Positions 4,839-31,336 of a DNA stretch of 37,697 nucleotides are shown here, one piece after another. The stretch comes from a virus. The notes beneath the pieces were generated by a model. It was given only the letters and a program-made list of their open reading frames with translations. It was not told the DNA's origin and ran no database searches. The stretch's first letter is position 1. The number at the start of each line of letters is the position of its first letter. The stretch lies in the IMG/VR virus record IMGVR_UViG_3300042691_001458, positions 1 through 37,697 of that record; one strand, given 5' to 3'. A program made the position numbers and the translations under genes.

Positions 4839-7298
4839 ATGGCGGTTAAGCTCAAGAACAATGCACGGGGTTTTCTGGATGCCGCAGTCACGGCGTCTAG
4901 CACTCAGTTTTATCTGAGCGCCGGCACCGGCGATGCTTTCCCCGCGCTGGCTTCGGGAGAGTTTTTTAACGCTACCGTCGTCTCATCCGGCGGTTTGCGT
5001 GAAATCGTAAAGGTCACGGCCCGGTCGACCGATACACTGACCGTTGTTCGCGCGCAGGAAAGTACGACTGCTATCGCGTTCAGCCCCGGCAGCCTTGTCG
5101 AACTGCGGGTGACGGTCGCCAACATCGAAGCAGCCATCGGCGATGACAAGCCGTTCCGCGACTTCCGCCCCGGTGATGCCCCCAACCGCTTCACACTGAC
5201 AGGCGGTTCGGTCACAGCCAGCCTCAACGGTAACGTCTACCGCTTCACCGGTCTCGGTTCGGCGTTCTTGCTGGACAGCGTTCCGCTGGAGCCTAACCAG
5301 ACCTACACCTTCCGTGTCGGCTATCAGCGGTTTAAGGATAGCGGTGATCCGGCGAACGACGGCCTCACTGCCGGTGTCGACTGGTACAACGGCTACGGCA
5401 ATAAGATCGGCACTGCCGTCATCCGCTCAGATAACACCCTGCTGGTGAGTTCGCTGCTGCGTACGGCGACCTACTCGGTCGGCTTTCCCGGCGGTAATGC
5501 GTTCGATGTCTACATCCCGCAGTCGGCACGGTACGCTGTCCCGTGGTTCCGCACGTTTGGCGCAGGTCACGAGACCGATCTCGTCACCCTCGCGCTGCGC
5601 GACACTCCGACGCCGTCGGTGGTTGTGTCGGCTAATAATCTCGTTATCCCGAACAACTTCCAGTGGCCCGCTGGTACTATTCCTGCGGGCGCAGGTGTCA
5701 CAGACCCGTACACCGTGGCACGGACGTTCTATGTCACCATGACGGGTAGCGATGCCAATACCGGCACCAGCTTGTCAGTGCCTCTCGCCACGATCAACGC
5801 CGCGCTTACAAAGCTGGCAGCCCTCAATCAACCGGGCATCGTCATCGTGCAGCCGGGTGAGTACGTGGTGCAGCCCAACACCGATATTCCGCCGAACTGC
5901 GCGCTGTATGGCTTCGACTTGCGCGTGACCAAGCTGCGTCTGCCTAACGGGCTGTCACAAAACAACATGTTCCGCTTGACCAGCGGGTGCAAGGTTCGCG
6001 GCTTTACGTTTACCGGCCTTCAGCACGAATCACCACAGGCCTACGCTACGACCGCTGGCGGTCTGGCGTCTGTTGCTCTACTAGACTATTTCACTGTTGC
6101 TGGGGTTCTGTATCGCAAGATCAGCACCGGAGCGCAGGTGACAACCCATGACTATCCGCCCACTAAGGGGTTCGCGTTCGTCTTCAAGCCGGGTGCAAAC
6201 ATCACGCGGTCGCCCTACATCAGCGACTGCTCAACGCTGCACGACTTCACGTACGACCAGATGACGCTGCCGATTGACCGCGAGACGGGCAATCCGCTGA
6301 TGCCAAGGGGCGCTGGTAACTTGCGCGCTGACGGCTCTGTGCTGGACCCTGCGTCCGTACTTCGCTCTGTCGTCGTCGACTCCTTCACGGCTATCAACCC
6401 GAACGGCTACGCTTACCTGATGACCCGCAACGCATTCGTGCAGCTTGTGTCGGTCTTTACCAACTGGTCTCGATATGGCCTGTGGTGCCACGATGGCGGT
6501 CAGGTCACGGTAGCCAACTCGAACTCCACGTTTGGCGATTACGCTCTCGTCTCGACCGGGTTCCGGAACAGTGTTCGCATCCCCGATCCTGTTGGCCAGC
6601 CGCGCGGTGTGTATGTAGCTGCGGCTGATGCTATCACGGAGCAACGCGATACCATCGTCGAAGAAGTCTATGCGCTTCTGGCTAACGCGTATGTCGTAGT
6701 GCAGAACTTCAATGCAGCGAATGAGGCATTCACTCGCAGCGATTTGCGTACACTGCTGCGCGAACTCGCGGATGACCTTCGGTCGGGTCAGGACCGTGGC
6801 TCACAGTTTTTCGTTAAGGGCTTCTTCGATTGGAACGCCGGGTATCTGTTTGACTCGACGCTGCTGCCGATCTTCCTTGCCAGCTACGATTTTACATACG
6901 ACCGCATTCTTGCCCGTTGCGCTCTGACCAACCCTGCACAAACCATGCTTGCATCGCTGATCAGCCTGATCAAGACTAACCTCCAAACTCCGCCGATCAT
7001 CGCTTTCCCGTCCGTGGTCGAGGCAACCGGCCAGCAGTTCAGCTACGTCGGCTCCGGCGTCAACTTTAACTCGCTGCCCTTCTCACAGCGCGGCACGGGT
7101 ATGGCGGGCGATCCCACCTTTGTTAACCTAAAGGTCAACGGAGGACGTATCTACGCGACGTTCTCGACAGAACTCGGTGACACGTATCTGGGTGACGACC
7201 TTCGCGTTGACTTTGAGCGCGGAACTGTCGAAGGGCAAGCATTCTCGCGCGGTGTCCAGAATATCACCCTGCCGCTCATTCAGGCACTTGGAGCTTAA
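4839..7298 (+). CDS. Tailspike with beta-helix (pectate-lyase-like) domain
   Basis: This 819-residue protein is a probable receptor-binding or depolymerising tailspike. Residues 1-105 form an N-terminal module (AVKLKNNARGFLDAAVTASS, REIVKVTARSTDTLTVVRAQ) common to phage tail fibres, which attaches them to the virion. Residues about 105-285 look like a beta-sandwich (carbohydrate-binding type). From residue about 293 the text FYVTMTGSDANTGTSLSVPL, GEYVVQPNTDIPPNCALYGF and later strands matches the DUF1565/pectate-lyase beta-helix opening. The C-terminal ~180 residues (SGVNFNSLPFSQRGTGMAGD, IYATFSTELGDTYLGDDL, AFSRGVQNITLPL) recall a conserved end domain of cyanophage structural proteins. Catalytic acids cannot be assigned by eye, so enzymatic activity is unproven. 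The gene follows the connector genes with a 12-base gap. Confidence 0.7.
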   Translation: MAVKLKNNARGFLDAAVTASSTQFYLSAGTGDAFPALASGEFFNATVVSSGGLREIVKVTARSTDTLTVVRAQESTTAIAFSPGSLVELRVTVANIEAAIGDDKPFRDFRPGDAPNRFTLTGGSVTASLNGNVYRFTGLGSAFLLDSVPLEPNQTYTFRVGYQRFKDSGDPANDGLTAGVDWYNGYGNKIGTAVIRSDNTLLVSSLLRTATYSVGFPGGNAFDVYIPQSARYAVPWFRTFGAGHETDLVTLALRDTPTPSVVVSANNLVIPNNFQWPAGTIPAGAGVTDPYTVARTFYVTMTGSDANTGTSLSVPLATINAALTKLAALNQPGIVIVQPGEYVVQPNTDIPPNCALYGFDLRVTKLRLPNGLSQNNMFRLTSGCKVRGFTFTGLQHESPQAYATTAGGLASVALLDYFTVAGVLYRKISTGAQVTTHDYPPTKGFAFVFKPGANITRSPYISDCSTLHDFTYDQMTLPIDRETGNPLMPRGAGNLRADGSVLDPASVLRSVVVDSFTAINPNGYAYLMTRNAFVQLVSVFTNWSRYGLWCHDGGQVTVANSNSTFGDYALVSTGFRNSVRIPDPVGQPRGVYVAAADAITEQRDTIVEEVYALLANAYVVVQNFNAANEAFTRSDLRTLLRELADDLRSGQDRGSQFFVKGFFDWNAGYLFDSTLLPIFLASYDFTYDRILARCALTNPAQTMLASLISLIKTNLQTPPIIAFPSVVEATGQQFSYVGSGVNFNSLPFSQRGTGMAGDPTFVNLKVNGGRIYATFSTELGDTYLGDDLRVDFERGTVEGQAFSRGVQNITLPLIQALGA

Positions 7299-7712: not shown

Positions 7713-10662
<2,950 letters not shown>

Positions 10663-13174: not shown

Positions 13175-14821
13175 ATGCCGATTACCCCGTCATCCACGAT
13201 TGGTTTCGCACTGCGCGGCGATACTCTTGCTCGGTGGACCTCGTTCAATCCGGTTCTCGCCGACCGTGAACTCGTGCTTGAGACGGATACAAACCGGGTT
13301 AAGATCGGCAACGGTACCAGCCCCTACCTTTCGCTTCCGTACGCCGGCATCATTGGTCCGACAGGACCCACGGGTGCAGCTTCGACTGTACCCGGTCCGA
13401 CAGGTCCGGGAGTTGGAGCAACAGGTCCGACGGGTGCCACCGGTGGCGCTGGCCCGACAGGTCCGGGAGTAGGTGCAACAGGTCCGACGGGTGCAACAGG
13501 TCCCTCCGGCACCGGTCCGACTGGAGCCACGGGTGCAGCTTCGACTGTCGCTGGTCCAACAGGTCCTACAGGTTCGGGGCCAACAGGTCCGACGGGTACA
13601 GCTTCGACTGTTGCGGGTCCAACAGGTCCCTCCGGCACCGGTCCGACAGGACCCACGGGCGCAGCATCAACCGTACCCGGTCCGACAGGTCCGGGAGTAG
13701 GTGCAACAGGTCCGACGGGTGCCACTGGTCCCTCCGGCACCGGTCCGACTGGACCGACTGGACCCACGGGTGCAGCATCAACCGCAGCCGGTCCGACAGG
13801 TCCGACTGGCCCACAGGCTACAGGTCCTACAGGTCCGACAGGTTCATCCGGTCCGACAGGTCCGGGAGTTGGAGCGACAGGTCCGACAGGACCCACAGGT
13901 GCGACATCAACCGCAGCCGGTCCGACAGGCCCCACTGGTCCGCAAGGTGCAGCATCAACCGCAGCCGGTCCGACGGGTCCGACTGGCCCACAGGCTTTAG
14001 GTCCTACAGGTTTATCCGGCCCGACTGGTCCGACAGGTCCGCAGGGTGGCGGTCCTACCGGACCGACGGGTACGGCATCAACCGCAGTTGGTCCGACAGG
14101 TCCTTCGGGTAGTGGTCCGACAGGACCCACGGGTGCTGCATCAACCGTACCCGGTCCGACAGGTCCTTCAGGTGGAGGTCCGACAGGTCCCACGGGTACA
14201 GCTTCGACTGTCGCTGGTCCGACAGGTCCAACTGGCACCGGTCCAACAGGTCCGACGGGTGCAGCTTCGACTGTCGCTGGTCCGACAGGTCCTTCGGGTG
14301 GAGGTCCGACAGGTCCAACTGGCCCCGCCTCTACGGTTGCAGGTCCAACAGGTCCTTCGGGTGGAGGTCCGACAGGTCCGACGGGTGCTGCCGGTGGCGG
14401 TCCTACCGGTCCGACAGGTGTTTCGGGAAGTGGTCCTACTGGTCCGACAGGTGTTGGTCCTACGGGTCCAACTGGCGCAAACTCGTCAGCAACTGTTTTT
14501 GCGACTTTAATCGATGTTGTAGCCGGATTATCAATACTTGTACCGTATGCCAACACAACAGGGCGAACTGCGTATTTTACGCTGCAAGTAGATTCGACGA
14601 TATCTGCCGGAGGTAATGGTGCCGCATACATGATAATCACTAGCCCCAGTAATCAATCTTTTGATATGGAACTAAACCAACGAATAAACTCATCCGGAGC
14701 GTCGCAAACTTTTACAGACGTTCTTACAGGAATAGTTCCTCCCGGATGGACAGTGAAATGGACACGTGTTGGAACCGGCATATCTGGTCCATCCACTGCA
14801 AATCTGGTGCTTTTCTCTTAA
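13175..14821 (+). CDS. Second GPT-collagen tail fibre
   Basis: This 548-residue fibre shares its N-terminal ~60 residues ([40 protein letters not shown]) with the first fibre, including a 26-base identical DNA stretch, so the two are paralogues and probably bind the same place on the tail. Residues about 58-436 are a GPT collagen-like shaft with periodic ASTVAGPTG and Gly-Val-Gly interruptions. The C-terminal ~110 residues ([55 protein letters not shown]) form a compact beta domain that differs from the propeller tip of fibre 1. The DNA of this tip is less GC-rich than its surroundings. The role is host binding or particle display, by analogy. Confidence 0.78.
13346..14484 (+). repeat. Tandem repeats coding GPT collagen-like shaft (fibre 2)
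   Basis: The same GGTCCGACA-type units as in the first fibre, here more often broken by inserts such as GCTTCGACTGTCGCT (ASTVA), GGGAGTAGGTGCA (GVGA) and CCTTCGGGTGGA (PSGG). Long near-identical blocks recur within the array (for example around 13550, 13610, 14205 and 14265), which makes recombination within this array, and with the array at 8308-9186, likely. Confidence 0.9.
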
Positions 14822-16743: not shown

Positions 16744-19164
16744 ATGTCTGCCGTAAAGATTACCACCTTCTTCGGCATCTCCCCCAAGGTGTCTCCGGAA
16801 CTGCTGCCGGAGACTGCCGGTCAAATATCGAACAACACCAAGCTGGTATCGGGAGACCTCGATCCATACCCCACCCCGGTCATCGTCGATAACTCCGGCA
16901 TCACCGGCACAATCCGTACGCTCTACGCCTTCAAGGGCGATCAGAACGAGAACCGTTGGTTGGCGTGGACCACCGACGTAAACGTAGCGATTGTCACTGC
17001 TACGGGAGAAACCGACCGTCGGTTTTACTACACCGGTGACGGATCACCCAAGGTAAGCAACTACTCGCTGGCGTTCGCCGGTGCTGGCCCCTACCCCACG
17101 GGGTACTACGAACTGGGTCTGCCGCTGCCGACGACCAAGCCGATCATCACTGTGTCGGCGTTCACGCCTGCAATCACTGCCTCCTACGCCCGCGACACAA
17201 ACAACATTGCCACGCTGGTGACTTCGGCTCCGCACACGCTGCGCTCCAATGCGATCATCACGGTCACGGGTTTCAGCTACCTGTCAGGAACCTACACCCA
17301 CTCCAGCACCACGGTTACATGCACTGTCGTATCGCATGGTCTGACCGGTACGCCGCAGATCACGGTGGAGTTCGCCACCGGAGATGCCATTTCCGGAACC
17401 TACGTGGCCACTGTCACCGGGTCTAACACGTTCACGATTACGGTACCTACTGTTCCAACGACAAACGGTACGGTTCGCCTAAGCCTGTTTTCGTTCAACG
17501 CCACCGGTGTCACGGCCACCATCACCAACACCACTACGATCCAGTATTTCAGTCCCGGCCCTCCGCTGACTACGACCAGTTACTTCGGAGGCACGGTTGA
17601 TCTGGGCAGCCCGATCACACCGCGCTCGTATGTCTACACATGGATGACGCCGTGGGACGAGGAGTCTATTGCGTCGGAACCGACCGATACGGTCTATGTC
17701 CGCGAAGGCGTGACGGTTACGGTGAGCAGCCTGCCAACGGCGAAGCCGGCGGGCGACAACTTCATTCGTGGCATCCGCCTGTATCGCACCTTGTCAACGG
17801 TGCAGGGATCGGAGTACTTCCGCCTCAAGACGCTGTGGTTTCCCACTGGTTTGTCCAGTGTGCGCCGCACCACTAACGTCGCCACCGTCATGCTGGTCGA
17901 GCCACACAACCTCGGCATCAGCGATCGGTTCAAGATTGCTGACTGCACGGACGCCTCGTTCAACATCACCGGTGGTATCGTCCTCGACATCCCCGATGAC
18001 TACACGTTCACCTACACCAGTGCGGGGAGCAACACTGCACTGACCGCTGTCACCGCTGGCACCCTGTATATAGACGTGTCTGAGAACCCACCAACGACCG
18101 CAGCGCGGTACTGGGGTGACGCCGGCAACTACGATTTTATCGACGACTTTGATGCGTTGAACCTGTTTGATAGCCTTGGTTCTGATAATGCTGACCCGCC
18201 TCCCGCTGACCTTCAGGGTCTGACTGCGGTGCAGAACAACATCCTCGCTGGCTTCGTAGGCAACAAGCTGTACCTCACTCCACCAAACGAACCCTATGCG
18301 TGGCCGGAAGAGTTCGTCATCACGTTCCAGCACAACGTCATCGGGCTGGCACCCATCAACGGCGGAATCCTCGTCCTGACCGAAGCCTATCCTTTCCTTG
18401 TTACCGGTGCCGATCCGGCTGCCGGTATGAGTGTTCAACGCATCGACGCGCTCTATCCCTGCCTCAACCGCAAGGGTATCGTCTCCATGAACTACGGCGT
18501 GGTCTACCCCACGCACGACGGTCTGGCACTCTACGCACCGGGGTCCGGTCCTGCAATCATCACTCAGACGAACTTCGACAACGACACGTGGGGGACCGAG
18601 CTTGACCCAACGACCATCGTGGCCGACTATTATGGCGATGCCTACATCGCCTCTCACTCCACCGGTGGATTTATATTCCAACCTGTGCCGCAGGCCGGGG
18701 GTCAGTTTGTCACCATCGACTTCGACTTTACCGCGTCCTACTACGATACCATCGAGGGTCGCCTCTTCGGTGCTGCCGGTACCAAGGGCGATATCTATGA
18801 GTGGGATTCGCTCGCGCAGCCGAAGCTGATACAGAACTGGAAGTCTAAGGTCATCAAGACCCCTCGCATGATGAACATTGGTGCGGCTCGCGTTATCGCC
18901 GACTATGGTGAGGGCACGATCCTCTGGAATGAGGCAAACAAAAACTGGGGGGCTGAGACCCTGCTATGGTCAGCTCTAAGCAACATTACGTTTTATATGT
19001 GGGTAGACAAGGAACTGATCCTCACCACCGCGCTGTCGAGCAGCGGCGTCTTCCGCCTTCCCGCCGGCTACCTATCAGATACCTTTGAAGCAGGCGTTGA
19101 AGGTGATATTCGTGTACGGGCAATCCACCTCGGCGAGACGCCGCTGAGTCTGAAGGAAGCCTGA
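16744..19164 (+). CDS. Probable tail nozzle / tail tubular protein B-like
   Basis: This 806-residue, Thr/Gly/Asn-rich all-beta protein begins VKITTFFGISPKVSPELLPE, then AGQISNNTKLVSGDLDPYPT and GTIRTLYAFKGDQNENRWLA. The opening 'G-I-P-----LP---A-----N--L-SGDL-P' is what I recall of large tail proteins that sit in the nozzle position of podoviruses (T7 gp12 analogues). The middle (150-330) carries Ig-like Thr-rich segments (VTVSSLPTAKPAGDNFIRGI), and the second half (NNILAGFVGNKLYLTPPNEP, NGGILVLTEAYPFLVTGADP) has propeller-like repeats. It starts the ejection-protein block and ends with TGATG overlap to the next gene. Ig-like insertions may contact host sugars. Call by position and size. Confidence 0.55.
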   Translation: MSAVKITTFFGISPKVSPELLPETAGQISNNTKLVSGDLDPYPTPVIVDNSGITGTIRTLYAFKGDQNENRWLAWTTDVNVAIVTATGETDRRFYYTGDGSPKVSNYSLAFAGAGPYPTGYYELGLPLPTTKPIITVSAFTPAITASYARDTNNIATLVTSAPHTLRSNAIITVTGFSYLSGTYTHSSTTVTCTVVSHGLTGTPQITVEFATGDAISGTYVATVTGSNTFTITVPTVPTTNGTVRLSLFSFNATGVTATITNTTTIQYFSPGPPLTTTSYFGGTVDLGSPITPRSYVYTWMTPWDEESIASEPTDTVYVREGVTVTVSSLPTAKPAGDNFIRGIRLYRTLSTVQGSEYFRLKTLWFPTGLSSVRRTTNVATVMLVEPHNLGISDRFKIADCTDASFNITGGIVLDIPDDYTFTYTSAGSNTALTAVTAGTLYIDVSENPPTTAARYWGDAGNYDFIDDFDALNLFDSLGSDNADPPPADLQGLTAVQNNILAGFVGNKLYLTPPNEPYAWPEEFVITFQHNVIGLAPINGGILVLTEAYPFLVTGADPAAGMSVQRIDALYPCLNRKGIVSMNYGVVYPTHDGLALYAPGSGPAIITQTNFDNDTWGTELDPTTIVADYYGDAYIASHSTGGFIFQPVPQAGGQFVTIDFDFTASYYDTIEGRLFGAAGTKGDIYEWDSLAQPKLIQNWKSKVIKTPRMMNIGAARVIADYGEGTILWNEANKNWGAETLLWSALSNITFYMWVDKELILTTALSSSGVFRLPAGYLSDTFEAGVEGDIRVRAIHLGETPLSLKEA

Positions 19165-23965: not shown

Positions 23966-26900
23966 ATGGTCCGTGCCGGTATAATGGTCAACCCGCTGCT
24001 TCCCCCAGCGGACAACCTATCTAATCCACTTATGCCGCCGTCACTCGGCGGTAGTCTCGGTGGAACTAGCGTCGAAACGGCCCTTGCTGGCATCGCTGCA
24101 TTAGGTCAAAACGCGCGTCAGGGCTTGGCGGACCTCCCGCCGGAACCTGCTCGTCCGTCGTACGGCTTTAACTCTGCGACCAACCAGTTCTTTGCCAAGG
24201 GGCGGACGTTCGGAGTGGACGACTACCAAGCTGCTGTCGAGTCCGCTGACCAGCCGGGTACTGTTGCGCCGTTGCCCCAAGGGTTCCAGCCGCTGTCCGA
24301 GCAGCAGTTCGGCGGCTACGTCCAGTCGATCCGCAACCCCAGCAGGGGTACGCTGGCTTCCCGTAACTTCGGTCGTGGCATCGACCAGCTTCAGATGCTG
24401 GGTGGTCGCGGTCTCCAGCTTCTTGGCGCAGAGGAAACAGGTCAGCGCATCGTCGACCAACAGGTCGAGGACCTGCGGAAGACCACTCCGTACGAGCGTC
24501 AGTTCACTGACATTGACAGTACCAGCGGTGCCGTCGACTGGTTCGTGGCCAACCTCGCGCAGCAAGGTCCCATGCTGCTGGAAGCCATCGGTGCGGGCCT
24601 TGCGGGTGCTGCTATTGGTACTGCCTCCGGTGGTCCTGTTGGCGGCGCACTGGGTGCGCTGGGTGGTCTCGTTGCCAAGGGGGCGTGGAAACAATCGGTG
24701 CTGGCGGCAGCCCGCAAGAAGGCTGCGGGCGAAGCTCTCGACGTAGCCGAGACCCAACTGCTCAAGAAGGCTGCTGCCCTCGGTGGTGCCACTGCTGTGG
24801 CGACAGCAAACTCTCTTCAGATGGGCGCGTCCGACATCTACGGAGAACTCAGGGAACAGGGTGCCAGTGCTGATGACTTTGGTGCCCGCCTGACTGCGCT
24901 GGCCGGTTCGATCCCCTACGCTGCCATGGACCTGCTGCCTGAGTATGCGCTGGCTAGTCGCCTCCTCAGCCCCGCTGCTGCAACGGCAGGGCGCGCTGCC
25001 CGCCGTGGTGATACGCTCCGCCGTATTGGTAAGGGTGCCCTCGTCGGTGGCGCACTCGAAGGTACTACGGAACTGGGTCAGGAAGCAGAACTTCTGGCAC
25101 TGTCCGGCCAAGACTTCACCAACCCTGAGAACATCAAGCGCCTAATCAACTCGTTCGCTGCCGGTGCTGCTATCGGCGCACCCTTCGGTGGTGCTGCTAA
25201 TCTGCGGCGCGGGAAGTCGACTGACGTTTTGCAGGGCGGCACCGATCCGGATCAGATGCTGGCGCTTCCGGCTCCATTGCTGGCGCTTCCGGCTCCTCCG
25301 TTGGCGCTTCCGGCTCCGGGGGGCGATGCCACGCAAACTGAAACGCTGGCGCTTCCGGCTCCAATGCGGGCGCTGCCTGATTATACGGGTGGGTTCACCC
25401 CGACTGAGGGCGAACTGCCACTGATGGGTGGCGAAGCGACTCCTACCGCGTCGGGCTTCCGTCCGGCACAGGGAGAGATGTTCCCCGTTGGCGAACTGGG
25501 TCAGGCTCCTGCCATGCCGCAAGGCGGACAGATGGAACTGCCGTTTGCCGCAGGTGCGAACCAGCGTCCTGAAATCCAAGATGTGCTGCCGCTGGACACC
25601 GGCCTGCCGCCGCGCTTCTTCGCTGACCAGAGGACGCAGCCTCCTGCTGCTGGTACTGTCGGTGGTGCTAACCCTGTTCTTGCTGCATTGCAGCGCCGGA
25701 TGCAGACCAACCCGCAGTTCGATGCGGCAGAGCGTGAGCGCGCAGCGCAGCAGGCACAGCAGGAGCAACAAGCCCCCGGTATGGCGGCACTGCGTCGTGA
25801 CCTCACCCTTCAGCAAATCCAGCCAGAACTGCTGGCCGCTGAGACGGCACTGCCTGAAGTGCAGACATCCGTGTCCCCTGCCAACGCTGCTGAGGCGTGG
25901 CGCAGGCTGGCTGGCCGTGGCCGTCCGAAGGCGTTTGAGAAGTTTCTGCCCGCTACTCAGAACCAGTGGATCGACGCACTCAACATGGCGGTCGCTGGCG
26001 AACTGACGCAGGACGACCTGAAGCAAATCCGCATTGAACTGGTGCAGGCCGAGACTGTCGCGCGCATTACCAAGTCTGAACCGCGCACTGTGGTGACTGG
26101 TGCCATCACGCCGCTCGAACCGGAACCCACTCCACCGACGCCACCGAAGGGAGGCAAACTCCGTGCAGATCAAAAGCCAAAGCCAGCTACGGTGGCTCGA
26201 ACGCAACCTGCCGGACGTGGCGGACAAGGTCTCAAGCGCGGTACCGGAGGCACAACTGGACAAACTACCGGAGCGCCTGTCGCCGCAGCAACGCAGCCAG
26301 CAGCGCAGCCAGCCAAGCCCGTCCCTGTTCAGCAGCCCAAAGCGAAAGCTGTTCGGGAAACTGTAGGTCCGTCGACCACTGCGGTTGAGCGGGCAGACAT
26401 GTCTGACTCTGAGCGGCTGGCTGCTGCCGTCGAAGTGGCCGAGACCTACACCAAGACAGATGAGGCATACGCGGACGCCATCTACGATATCATTAGCGTC
26501 GGGTACTTCGATAAGCTCACGTCAGGAACGAGTACAGCGCGCAAGGCTCTGGTTGATAAGGCGCGGTCCTTCATCGAGGACACCACGTTTACAGCCAAGC
26601 AGCGTCAGGTGATCAGCAGCGTCTTCACTGCACAGATCAAGGATGCAAAGACCGAAGGTCTGTCCGCCGTCTCCGGTACCGATGTAGCCCCGTGGCTCCA
26701 GTTCATGATCGACGCCGGTCGTCTGGAAGACACACGCCCCCTGCGCGGCACCGTCAAAGACATCAACAAGATCGCTGACCCGGTCGTCCGTGACCAAGTG
26801 GCCGCTGTACTGGAGGTCAAGAAGGCTGCGCCGCAGGTCACTTCGCCGACGCAGGAGTCCAAGGCTGCTGACCCGGCGTCACCGCTGGCGATGTTGCAGC

Positions 26901-29900
26901 GGTTCCTTGGTGAGTACACCCGGAGTGCGCGCACCCAAGAGTTCTGGGACCAGCCGTTTACGTTTGAAGGTACGACCTACTCGTACGGTCCGCGTGGCTT
27001 CGCCGAGGACATGTTTGCCGAGATCGACCCCAACGACGCCAAGGCTTCGTACATGGGCACCCCAATCCGCGACTACTTCAACAAGGACGGCAGCCTGAAG
27101 CTGGATGAGACCAGTCGCGTCGAGATGGGTGATAAGGCTTTCGTTCTCCAAAAGATCGGTGGCACCAAGGGCACCGGTCGCTTCTCCCTGTCGTCGTTCA
27201 ACAACCCTGAGACATCCATGTCCGAGGGGTCTGTCAGGCTGGCCGTGGGTAAGTTCCTGTCCAAGCTGATGACCAAGCCGAGGGTCACGGTGGTCCGCAA
27301 TCAGGCTGATCTCATGCGCCGCTATCCGGCGCTGTACCGCAAGGCTGTGGCAGAACGGCCACAGGGTGACTTCGATGCCGCACAGGCAGCAGGCTACTCG
27401 TTCGCCGGCGGCAACGTCATCATCTTCACCGACCGGATCGCCAACGAACAGCACCTGAACTTCGTGCTGGCACACGAGACCATGGGTCACTTCGGCCTGC
27501 GGGGTATCATCCCTGAGTCCAAGTTCAACGCCGTGATGGATCAGGTCTATCAGTCCAGCCCCTACATCCAAGCCGATGTGGACGCCTTCGTGGCGCAGGG
27601 CATGAGCAAGGAAGAGGCGGTCGAGGAGTATCTCTCCGACTTCGCCGGCATCCTCGACACCAGCGTCGTGGCCCGCATCTGGAACGCCATCAAGGGCGCA
27701 CTCAACAAGCTGGGTATCAAGTTCGGCGACGAGATGATGCGCCATCTGCTCAAGCAGTCGCGGTCCTACGTTCGTCAGGGTAAGTCCTACATCCACCAGA
27801 CCGATCAGGTCTTCTCTGATATGTATCTGGTTGAGAACGGCTACGGTCCGCAGGGCACCGGTCGCTTCTCTACGACTAACACCTTGTATGATACTATGCG
27901 GACCGCTGAAAACCTGCGCTTCGCTGACCAACAGCGCCCCACTGATATGGCCAGCGCGTGGAAAGAGTTCGTCTCGTACGTCGGGCCAACGGCGCGCAAG
28001 TTCGACCGCTTCGCCTCCGAGTTCCTCAGCCTTCAGGTCTTCCGGTCGCGCAAGAACCCCGGCGCGCAGCGCCTGTATGAAATCCTGCAAGCGACCAACG
28101 GCATCGCCACGCGCGTCCGGGTCAAGAGCAACGAGCGTAACAAGGCTATCTTCGACGCCTCGTCTGAGGTGACGGATCGCACCAGCGCATTGTTGTACGC
28201 AGCGCAGGAACTGGCGGACTCTCGCATCACGGACATTCGCAAGCTGAACGGTTCACCGCTCTACTCTGTAGTCAACGGTGTCCTCGAACCTAACTTCGCC
28301 GAGATCAAGAGGCTCAAGAAGATGGGTCACATTGAGTTCGAGCAGGCGCGTGACGGTTTTGACTACCCGGTGGTCGATGAAACTGGTGCCACCCGTACGG
28401 AACGCTTTGCCGGTATCAAGGGTCTGACCAAGAATAGCACTGAGTGGATGGGCTACCTGTCCCTGCGCGAGACGATGGACGATGTTGCACTCGACCTATT
28501 GCGCGCCCGCTATAGCGCCACACTGACTGACCGTAAGATCAGCTTCAAGCAGTTCGACGAACTGGTCGACGGCAAACTGACTGACGCAGAGAAGCAGTTC
28601 ATCGACAGTATGCTCAACACGTACCGCGATCTTTACGCGGCTGGGACCACGCTGGATGCAGATGGTAACGTCATCTTCGACCGCGCTGCCATGCAGAAAG
28701 CCGACGACTTCCTCGTGGCGATCAACCGGAGCATCCTCAACCTGAAGGAAGGCTATGCCGCCATCGAGGCGCAGTTCAAGGATCAGGTGCCGGACGACAC
28801 CGTGGCCAAGCTGCGCGAACTGAGCAAGCGGATCAAGCTGGGCGAAGACAAGTTCGCGGTGCAAACCCGGATGAAGCAACTGATGATCGACGGCCTGTCC
28901 ACGGAGCAGGCCGACATGTCGGCGCGGCAGTCGATTGCCGGCGGATACACCCCGCTGCTGCGCGAAGGTCCGTACCAACTTCGCCTGCAAGCTATAAACC
29001 CCCGCACAGGTCAGCCGGTTAAGCTCGATGAGTCATCGCGGGATCGTCTGGTTTACATGCAGATGGATAGCGAACGTGAGGCAGTCCGCCTCGCTGACGA
29101 GATCAACACGCTTCTCTCCGAAGATGGTAAGCCCAAGCAGTACACGCTGAAGGCGTACAACCCTGACACTCAAAAAGTGGAAGACACTCAGGTACAGTTG
29201 GTGGCCGAGGCGGAGCGGTCGCCTGATAGCATCTCCGGCCCGCCGCAGCTAAACCTCAACGAGTTCCAGTACGGTCTGCGCCAACTGAACATCTCGCTCA
29301 CCCCGGCGGAAGTACAGAACGTGGTGGTCGCTATGACCCGCCAGAACAGCGCGGCGCGCAACCGCTTGCGCCGTGGCTTCGTGCCCGGTGCTGACCGAGA
29401 TGCAGTCAAGGCTATCTCTAAACATATCGACAGCCGTGCATCGACCATTGCAAAGACGGAGATGCGTCCGTACCTCAACGAACTGATGAATATGTCGATG
29501 CGTTCGACACAGCTTCTGTGGAAGGGTGATGCTGATCTGCTGAAGGAACTGAAGGAGCAGGCCGAAGATCAATCAATCTCAGCGGACCAGCGCCTGCTCC
29601 GACAGCGCGAGTACACCCGCTATAAGCACATGTATGATACCACCAACCCGAAGGGTGGGGCCAAACGGGGCAACGAGTTCTATAACGAAGCGTCCCGCAC
29701 GGTGCAGTTCCTTAACGAGAACCGCGACGTGTCGACCTCGGACTTCGAGGCAGGCGCAGTGGCCTCCCGGCTGCGGTCGTTTACCAGTGCTGTGCAGCTT
29801 GGCGGTTCGCTGGCGACAGCCATCCTCAACTTTATCGGTGTGTACACCAACGCCCTGCCGTTTCTCGCCACCTACAACGAGCGCAATGGATTTGGCGGCG

Positions 29901-31336
29901 GCTTTGGTGCTGGTGCTGCTGTCTCTGAGTATCACCGTGCCCTTGGTCAGGTGGGCGGTCTGGGTATCACCAACCCGAAGGCGAACACCGCTGAGTTCTA
30001 TGATCAGTTGTCGGACGCTGATCTCAAGCGAATCGGCCTGACCCGCAACGAGGCGAACTTCATCGCCAGAGAAATCCGTGAAGGGTCCATGATCCCGGCG
30101 CAGTCCAACGCGCTGATCAACACCTCGCGCGGGCGGTCGAACTCGCCGTTCGTACGGCGGTTCCTTGAAGTTTGGATGGCACCGTTCAACATGTCAGAGC
30201 AGGCTGCTCGACGTAGTCTTGGTCTGGCCGCCTACCGTCTGGAGTATGCCCGCCAAAAGCAGGCCGGTGTCGCTGAGGACAAGGCGGTTGAAGCGGCTCG
30301 TCGCTTCGCTGTCGAAACCCTCGATGTAACCATGGGTGAGTACTCGGTCCTCAACCGACCGGCAGCATGGCGCAGTGGCATCCAGTCGTTCATCTACATG
30401 TACAAGGTCTACCCAACCACGGCGATCCAGTTGCTGGCCAACATGTCGCGCAGCGGACAGATTGCCATGCTGGGTATGCTCTTGCTGCTGTCTGGTATGC
30501 AGGGTCTACCGTTCGCCGAAGACCTCGAAGACATCGTGGACACCATCGCGCAGGCACTGGGTTTGACCATGGGCAGCGTTCGCGCCGAGGTGGTCAAGCT
30601 AATCGACAACACCATGCCGGGTGCATCAGTGCCGTTCGTTCAGGGTCTGGTCGGGATGTTCTTGCCCGGAGATATCGGTGCGCGTACGTCGCTAGGCAAC
30701 CTGTTCCCCGGCACTGGTATCGGTCTGGCTGGTGCCGACGTGACCCGTGAACTCCAAGACATTGCTGGTCCGATGCCTTCGGCCATGCTTCAGTCAGCCA
30801 AGACGGTCTACAATACGCTGCGGCTGCCGTTCTCGGATCAGGTGACGCTGCCGGATGTCATGCGCGAGTCGCCGGTTACTATGATGCGTGTCGCCGGTGA
30901 CGCCGTGGCCTACGCTGAAGCTGGGGTTGTTATTGACAAGCGCGGTTACACCGTATCCGAAGACGCCGGTGCAGGCGTGATGGCTGCACGTATCCTCGGC
31001 TTCTACCCGACCGATGCAGCCCGTCAGTATGCGGCCATTCGCATCTCAAAGCGCATCACTGACTACCAGCGAGATACTGTCACGAGTTACCGCACGGCGT
31101 GGGTTCGGGCCAAGATGGCCGGCGACAACGACGGAGCGCGAGACATTGAGCGGTCGGTACAGAAGTGGAACGAAGGTGCCGAGGGCACCGGTCTGCGAAT
31201 CAGGAACTTCATGCAAGGAAGTCAGCGCGCACTCAGGGAAGCAAAGCGGCCCGCCGGTGAGCGGGCGCTTCGTACCACACCGATAGCCAACCGCTCCGAT
31301 ATCGAACAGGTCTATGATCTAATGGGTGCTACCTGA
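23966..31336 (+). CDS. Giant polyvalent ejection protein with metallopeptidase-like motif
   Basis: This 2456-residue protein starts at an ATG seven bases after GGAGG. Residues about 200-245 are a glycine-zipper hydrophobic segment (LLEAIGAGLAGAAIGTASGG). Residues 431-471 hold LALPAP repeats, and 710-805 are a Pro/Lys/Gln-rich linker. Residues 1169-1177 read AHETMGHFG, with H-E-x-x-x-H at 1170-1175, the signature of zinc-peptidase-like domains in phage polyvalent proteins, followed by EEAVEEYLSDF with possible third ligands. Identical GTGRFS motifs lie on both sides (1069-1074 and 1297-1302). The C-terminal ~600 residues (FIGVYTNALPFLATYNERNG, FIYMYKVYPTTAIQLLANMS, IAMLGMLLLLSGMQGLPFAE) resemble the LPD38-type domain. 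As the last and largest late gene it matches T7 gp16 in place, and is probably injected. Its enzymatic activity is unproven. Confidence 0.7.
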   Translation: MVRAGIMVNPLLPPADNLSNPLMPPSLGGSLGGTSVETALAGIAALGQNARQGLADLPPEPARPSYGFNSATNQFFAKGRTFGVDDYQAAVESADQPGTVAPLPQGFQPLSEQQFGGYVQSIRNPSRGTLASRNFGRGIDQLQMLGGRGLQLLGAEETGQRIVDQQVEDLRKTTPYERQFTDIDSTSGAVDWFVANLAQQGPMLLEAIGAGLAGAAIGTASGGPVGGALGALGGLVAKGAWKQSVLAAARKKAAGEALDVAETQLLKKAAALGGATAVATANSLQMGASDIYGELREQGASADDFGARLTALAGSIPYAAMDLLPEYALASRLLSPAAATAGRAARRGDTLRRIGKGALVGGALEGTTELGQEAELLALSGQDFTNPENIKRLINSFAAGAAIGAPFGGAANLRRGKSTDVLQGGTDPDQMLALPAPLLALPAPPLALPAPGGDATQTETLALPAPMRALPDYTGGFTPTEGELPLMGGEATPTASGFRPAQGEMFPVGELGQAPAMPQGGQMELPFAAGANQRPEIQDVLPLDTGLPPRFFADQRTQPPAAGTVGGANPVLAALQRRMQTNPQFDAAERERAAQQAQQEQQAPGMAALRRDLTLQQIQPELLAAETALPEVQTSVSPANAAEAWRRLAGRGRPKAFEKFLPATQNQWIDALNMAVAGELTQDDLKQIRIELVQAETVARITKSEPRTVVTGAITPLEPEPTPPTPPKGGKLRADQKPKPATVARTQPAGRGGQGLKRGTGGTTGQTTGAPVAAATQPAAQPAKPVPVQQPKAKAVRETVGPSTTAVERADMSDSERLAAAVEVAETYTKTDEAYADAIYDIISVGYFDKLTSGTSTARKALVDKARSFIEDTTFTAKQRQVISSVFTAQIKDAKTEGLSAVSGTDVAPWLQFMIDAGRLEDTRPLRGTVKDINKIADPVVRDQVAAVLEVKKAAPQVTSPTQESKAADPASPLAMLQRFLGEYTRSARTQEFWDQPFTFEGTTYSYGPRGFAEDMFAEIDPNDAKASYMGTPIRDYFNKDGSLKLDETSRVEMGDKAFVLQKIGGTKGTGRFSLSSFNNPETSMSEGSVRLAVGKFLSKLMTKPRVTVVRNQADLMRRYPALYRKAVAERPQGDFDAAQAAGYSFAGGNVIIFTDRIANEQHLNFVLAHETMGHFGLRGIIPESKFNAVMDQVYQSSPYIQADVDAFVAQGMSKEEAVEEYLSDFAGILDTSVVARIWNAIKGALNKLGIKFGDEMMRHLLKQSRSYVRQGKSYIHQTDQVFSDMYLVENGYGPQGTGRFSTTNTLYDTMRTAENLRFADQQRPTDMASAWKEFVSYVGPTARKFDRFASEFLSLQVFRSRKNPGAQRLYEILQATNGIATRVRVKSNERNKAIFDASSEVTDRTSALLYAAQELADSRITDIRKLNGSPLYSVVNGVLEPNFAEIKRLKKMGHIEFEQARDGFDYPVVDETGATRTERFAGIKGLTKNSTEWMGYLSLRETMDDVALDLLRARYSATLTDRKISFKQFDELVDGKLTDAEKQFIDSMLNTYRDLYAAGTTLDADGNVIFDRAAMQKADDFLVAINRSILNLKEGYAAIEAQFKDQVPDDTVAKLRELSKRIKLGEDKFAVQTRMKQLMIDGLSTEQADMSARQSIAGGYTPLLREGPYQLRLQAINPRTGQPVKLDESSRDRLVYMQMDSEREAVRLADEINTLLSEDGKPKQYTLKAYNPDTQKVEDTQVQLVAEAERSPDSISGPPQLNLNEFQYGLRQLNISLTPAEVQNVVVAMTRQNSAARNRLRRGFVPGADRDAVKAISKHIDSRASTIAKTEMRPYLNELMNMSMRSTQLLWKGDADLLKELKEQAEDQSISADQRLLRQREYTRYKHMYDTTNPKGGAKRGNEFYNEASRTVQFLNENRDVSTSDFEAGAVASRLRSFTSAVQLGGSLATAILNFIGVYTNALPFLATYNERNGFGGGFGAGAAVSEYHRALGQVGGLGITNPKANTAEFYDQLSDADLKRIGLTRNEANFIAREIREGSMIPAQSNALINTSRGRSNSPFVRRFLEVWMAPFNMSEQAARRSLGLAAYRLEYARQKQAGVAEDKAVEAARRFAVETLDVTMGEYSVLNRPAAWRSGIQSFIYMYKVYPTTAIQLLANMSRSGQIAMLGMLLLLSGMQGLPFAEDLEDIVDTIAQALGLTMGSVRAEVVKLIDNTMPGASVPFVQGLVGMFLPGDIGARTSLGNLFPGTGIGLAGADVTRELQDIAGPMPSAMLQSAKTVYNTLRLPFSDQVTLPDVMRESPVTMMRVAGDAVAYAEAGVVIDKRGYTVSEDAGAGVMAARILGFYPTDAARQYAAIRISKRITDYQRDTVTSYRTAWVRAKMAGDNDGARDIERSVQKWNEGAEGTGLRIRNFMQGSQRALREAKRPAGERALRTTPIANRSDIEQVYDLMGAT

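Follow-up and report, generated by a model that had tools for sequence, protein, structure and literature searches.

The window is a 37.7-kb stretch of an IMG/VR virus record that carries head, tail-fibre and internal virion genes. Its + strand structural block ends with the gene of a giant virion-type (polyvalent) protein (Table 1). The gene lies 3´ of one for an internal virion protein (16744-19164, +; phrog_511, E 1.2e-104) that is kin to proteins of Bcep22-like and other podoviruses, and this is the same placement as that of the DarB-like gene in those phages. Three further + strand genes match tail-fibre families (4839-7298, 7960-10662 and 13175-14821), some of these families being collagen-like; the latter two genes match largely the same ones. 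Among the tail-fibre genes there is also a phage beta-1,4-glycosyltransferase (12108-13169, +; phrog_13126, E 1.5e-100).

A Pfam scan of the giant protein gave no family above its gathering score, with Peptidase M48 (PF01435) reaching 14.7 bits against a gathering score of 20.3. The C-terminal part exceeds the cut-off of 100 for the NCBIfam model NF032893 (PLxRFG, tail-700) with 140.9 bits. This domain is common to giant virion proteins of the Pseudomonas F116/H66 type, and the record of H66 gp60 annotates its verification in the virion by mass spectrometry. The H66 protein differs in having HExxH-type motifs instead of HExxGH, and it carries no flanking FS[R/K] pair. Hydrophobic segments occur in the N-terminal part near residues 203-221 and 393-411, followed by a proline-rich stretch with four copies of LALPAP at about residues 431-465.

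In the middle of the chain, translation of the open frame confirmed what the initial annotation had read there, two identical GTGRFS strings bracketing a HETMGH motif. They stand 96 and 122 residues from it, and the interval between the copies is about 228 residues.

Table 1. Positions of the giant protein, its features and predicted products in the window, and loci of the module discussed below
Feature	Residues	Position	Strand	Remarks
Giant virion-type (polyvalent) protein, 265.8 kDa	2456 aa	23966..31336	+	single open frame; C-terminal PLxRFG/tail-700 domain
Predicted N-terminal product, 112 kDa if cut before F1073	1-1072	23966..27181	+	putative cut
GTGRFS copy 1, candidate upstream cleavage/recognition site	1069-1074	27170..27187	+	translation; pLDDT mostly <50
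Zincin-like metallopeptidase folded core	about 1087-1271	27224..27778	+	AlphaFold core pLDDT about 80-98
HETMGH, HExxGH catalytic/zinc motif	1170-1175	27473..27490	+	H, E, G, H invariant in 76 aligned sequences
EEYLSD, E1221 predicted third zinc ligand	1220-1225	27623..27640	+	invariant in 76 sequences; helix after catalytic helix
GTGRFS copy 2, candidate downstream cleavage/recognition site	1297-1302	27854..27871	+	homologue conservation; pLDDT <50
Predicted C-terminal product, 128 kDa if cut before F1301	1301-2456	27866..31333	+	putative cut
PLxRFG (tail-700) domain	1792-2419	29339..31222	+	NCBIfam NF032893
Loci of phosphoribosyltransferase-like module		L228-L253 at 6001-6600; also L131, L133, L099, L095		

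The zincin-like domain

The spacing of HETMGH was initially pointed out as differing by one residue from that of HExxH. The difference is real, but it is no oddity of this protein. In an alignment of 76 sequences, H1170, E1171, G1174, H1175, G1177 and E1221 are invariant, and the HE..GH spacing is constant in all relatives that have the motif, including those found via a region outside the domain. A degenerate HExxH is ruled out, as the clade shows no variation in this spacing. Such motifs were also described before: the zincin-like MPTases of polyvalent proteins were defined by Iyer et al. in 2017, and one set of them has HEXXXH with a probable bend of the helix (PMC5512222).

An earlier AlphaFold run from 12 sequences, with a poor mean pLDDT of 63.5, is superseded by a run on the 76 aligned sequences, which gave a mean pLDDT of 82.6 and values above 85 for most of the core. 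The model runs from a helix and a strand through further helices and two more strands to the HExxGH helix, with E1221 on one of the helices that follow; the elements at high pLDDT are H28-39, E47-51, E84-87, E91-95, H102-121 (HExxGH) and H156-166 (E1221). A zinc site had been suggested as something to look for in a model, and the predicted ligands indeed come from the HExxGH helix and the E1221 helix of a confident core. A Foldseek search against the PDB returned no significant match, MATCAP being among the weak ones, and a search against predicted viral structures matched polyvalent proteins (E 7e-7). VIA-align ranked known zincin metallopeptidases on top with Z of 4-6, where Z below 8 is not a proof of fold and many of the alignments stop just past the HExxGH position; MATCAP had Z 4.5 over 99 residues (rmsd 6.3), and DPP III was not listed. 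Sequence (the invariant HE..GH and E1221) and fold (zincins aligned best, at Z <6) together make it very likely that the middle domain, at first called only peptidase-like, is a zincin.

The domain resembles the HEXXXH MPTases of Iyer et al. in several respects. It is situated within a giant multidomain phage protein, HEXXXH lies on a helix and the Glu on the following one, and the small core consists in the AlphaFold model of an N-terminal helix, three strands and two C-terminal helices. The HExxxH zinc motif is found also in dipeptidyl peptidase III (M49) and in MATCAP/TMCP carboxypeptidases (PMC5805324, PMC10499314). These enzymes are exopeptidases whose architecture as a whole appears to differ; no relationship to them was detected at sequence level and the Foldseek E is not significant. 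The peptidase itself is thus a new member of an already known type. Unlike in the description of the HEXXXH set, the domain is bracketed here by a [G]RF[S]/FS[R] motif whose conservation is described below. The main text of PMC5512222 was searched and holds no linker or cleavage motif, and a literature search confined to open-licence papers found no such motif either. The new element would thus be the bracketing motif, a candidate processing motif.

Conservation of the motif on both sides of the peptidase

The repeat itself is weak evidence. Three 6-mers are repeated in the giant protein (GTGRFS, AGAAIG and the four-fold LALPAP), and at least one repeated 6-mer appears in 24% of its shuffled copies. 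The codons for G-T-G-R-F are identical in both copies (P about 0.009 from the codon usage of the frame, a post hoc value). Both facts would suit a short string repeated by chance or a scar of recombination at DNA level. Serine of the motif is, however, encoded by both TCN and AGY codons across relatives, therefore selection acts on the level of protein, and a DNA-level recombination site is ruled out. Conservation across homologues, which extends to enrichment on both sides of the peptidase in distant ones, is not a matter of chance, and we consider an origin by chance or as a scar highly improbable. It is this conservation, not the repeat, that is the real evidence for significance of the motif. 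Further GRFS-like sites were not found in a scan of the giant protein, RFS and FSR are sporadic in the other window proteins that were scanned, and no split genes with ends at the motif were found when looked for.

IMG/VR scans yielded 93 giant homologues, and column statistics were made on 44 non-redundant ones. Copy 2 stands out as an island of conservation with the pattern G-R-[F/Y]-small in a linker that is otherwise variable: G1299 and R1300 are each kept in 43 of the 44, F/Y1301 in all and S/A1302 in 38. Conservation is poor at columns 1303-1313, and columns 1293-1295 contain gaps. Copy 1 is looser and only moderately conserved, [G]x[F]S-L, with G in 32 homologues, R in 19, F/Y in 25, S in 22 and then L in 34. 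To avoid selecting on the peptidase, another search was made with a query about 480 residues downstream of it. All 37 untruncated proteins obtained in this way contain HExxGH, and in 35 of them GR[F/Y][S/A] follows about 130 residues after it; the remaining two have GRYM and GRFM. Peptidase-less members of the family, which could serve as a control, were not found, and every family protein checked combines peptidase with motif. When the window family is divided into 18 clusters, the form enriched downstream is F[S/A] (14 versus 2.25), not FS[R/K].

Remote-profile scans extended the comparison to 48 clusters with less than 60% identity in the domain core, 30 of them outside the window family. 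Over the 48 clusters, [F/Y]S[RKQL] shows an enrichment of about tenfold in two bins, -100..-80 and +120..+140 from the catalytic motif, and has a single occurrence between -80 and +120; control motifs show no enrichment at the two positions. In the 30 clusters outside the window family, [F/Y]S[RKLQ] was counted 12 times upstream (0.71 expected), 11 times downstream (0.73 expected) and never inside the domain core (7.0 expected). Corresponding Poisson p-values are near 1e-10 and overstate the significance, because clusters share ancestry and the bins were picked post hoc.

The initial annotation spoke of symmetric placement. Motifs do occur on both sides, but the symmetry is only approximate: [F/Y]S is present upstream in 24 of the 48 clusters, so that about half of them lack this site or have it in degenerate form, and the downstream [F/Y][S/A] is near-universal (38 of 48). 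Some distant members have neither motif (locus L149, Achromobacter phage CF418P1). Phage records outside the sample gave a mixed outcome; Dolichospermum phage Dfl-JY45 has AFSR at +125, as predicted. In Bacteroides phage BF1-TP2 (L258), [I/V]RFR[E/S] occurs four times, at residues 229, 435, 940 and 1161 of the stretch that was read. VRFR stands at -86 and +135 of HEVVGH, and the protein has IRFR at other places. Possibly this is the Bacteroides version of the motif, and it hints that the motif may change by lineage at both positions together. Upstream and downstream motifs match within one protein better than with shuffled partners at P 0.026, a weak value that carries no correction for relatedness. 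Similar motifs at the same places in very different phages are probably cutting or docking sites of the protease.

The motif at borders of modules

The proposal that RFS-type linkers recur between domains of polyvalent proteins is borne out across giant phage proteins. FS[R/K] lies at most 8 residues from ends of local alignments between them in 43 of 68 cases, with 15.9 expected; controls [LIV]S[R/K], [F/Y]A[R/K] and [F/Y]T[R/K] are near 1, and proline linkers reach 1.6. A prespecified test concerned a phosphoribosyltransferase-like module (VLLDDTLTQGGTLAQLKTHIE), which is found before or after the HExxGH peptidase in giant phage proteins; FSR was expected before it in new loci. [F/Y]SR stands just before the module in every one of the 26 loci, although the module takes several architectural positions and follows differing sequences; many of these loci are near-identical or overlap contigs already used. 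As the adjoining GW..FPD is partly conserved too, [F/Y]SR may travel with the module.

One could therefore think of a structural cap or strand of adjoining folds, kept for stability only. The motif merges with the start of the module ([F/Y]SR[R/D]GW), and other domains end in NPDI-x-FSR. Both GTGRFS copies, however, fall into the terminal flanks of the AlphaFold model, where pLDDT mostly stays under 50 and neither strand nor helix is predicted; the columns around the motif are variable and it recurs beside unrelated folds. We find a purely structural role quite unlikely.

FS[R/K] is also present at module boundaries far from any peptidase, so the motif could have another role. It might be cut by a different protease, of the phage prohead or of the host, with the internal zincin acting on host or other targets. 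The prohead protease Pro does cut DarA and the major capsid protein of P1 (PMC12810830, PMC9024508), and polyvalent MPTases are without experimentally assigned cleavage in the literature examined. On the other hand, the E|S site cut in the P1 capsid protein is unlike FS or RFS, every family protein checked unites peptidase and motif, and positional enrichment is strongest around the peptidase itself. Cleavage by another enzyme thus seems to us unlikely.

Proposed processing of the giant protein

We suggest that the GTGRFS copies are recognition motifs in disordered linkers, most likely sites at which this peptidase cuts, be it in cis or in trans; from the conservation and the model together we put the chances of this at about even. 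Zincins commonly select residues on the primed side, and a hydrophobic S1´ pocket suits an aromatic residue at P1´. In the proposed scheme, a polyvalent protein, either injected or kept in the virion, would carry the zincin-like HExxGH metallopeptidase in mid-chain. The resident peptidase would cut its own polypeptide at both GTGRFS copies, within one molecule or between two of them. The bond would presumably be R|F, which would place the conserved aromatic residue at P1´ and the small one at P2´. Three products would result: residues 1-1072 (112 kDa), the peptidase 1073-1300 (25 kDa) and residues 1301-2456 (128 kDa).

Viral polyproteins with proteases of 3C type offer a parallel, as such a protease cuts itself out at two similar sites, one at each end. 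The likeness consists in a protease domain between two like sequences; the protease class and the viruses are different, and the sites are here only candidates. Self-cleavage of the giant protein, which was the original suggestion, is plausible. This reading is strengthened by the independent proposal that MPTases autoprocess polyvalent proteins, for which Iyer et al. considered three alternative times, before packaging, inside the head or once injection has taken place (PMC5512222). Cleavage after entry, as originally suggested, would be only one of these.

The vRNAP of phage N4 contains an MPTase with HExxH, and it is packaged in uncut form (PMC5512222). This would fit an uncut binding or docking element, for instance a latch for the peptidase cleft, a tag for packaging or ejection or a chaperone site, repeated at module borders. 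Conserved short linker motifs frequently are binding sites, and many copies at borders would suit packaging or ejection coupled to unfolding. Nevertheless, the same residues flank the peptidase in proteins of otherwise quite different architecture, and a zincin subsite would be expected to read the aromatic-small core. We regard docking without cleavage as fairly unlikely. N4 vRNAP itself has no such motif at matching positions near its HELVH, and a motif-less, uncut protein is consistent with cleavage at the motif, yet this is a single case from a different clade. P1 DdrB was considered as a precedent and rejected. It has RFS at 756, about 116 residues before HELGH, it belongs to another MPTase clade, and its predicted N-terminal piece of 82.5 kDa fits poorly to the reported one of about 76 kDa.

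A broader and more tentative idea is that polyvalent proteins in general are polyproteins. Border motifs of the [R]F[S][R/K/L] type might then constitute a shared code by which the resident HExxGH peptidase frees itself and the other effector modules, and lineage variants (FSR, GRFS, the RFR of Bacteroides phages) would match within one protein. Ever since the discovery of MPTase domains in injected giant phage proteins it has been asked whether, where and when these proteins are cut. With a defined motif there are exact predicted ends to be sought in peptide data from virions and infected cells, and the mutation E1171A should abolish them. Should the motif be confirmed as a processing site, the sequence of many giant phage proteins that now lack annotation could reveal where their modules meet and which effectors they carry, and the peptidase would be a possible source of a new site-specific protease.

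HExxGH appears twice in the stretches covered at the loci L130 and L141, and the giant protein of L059 contains HELGH besides HETIGH.
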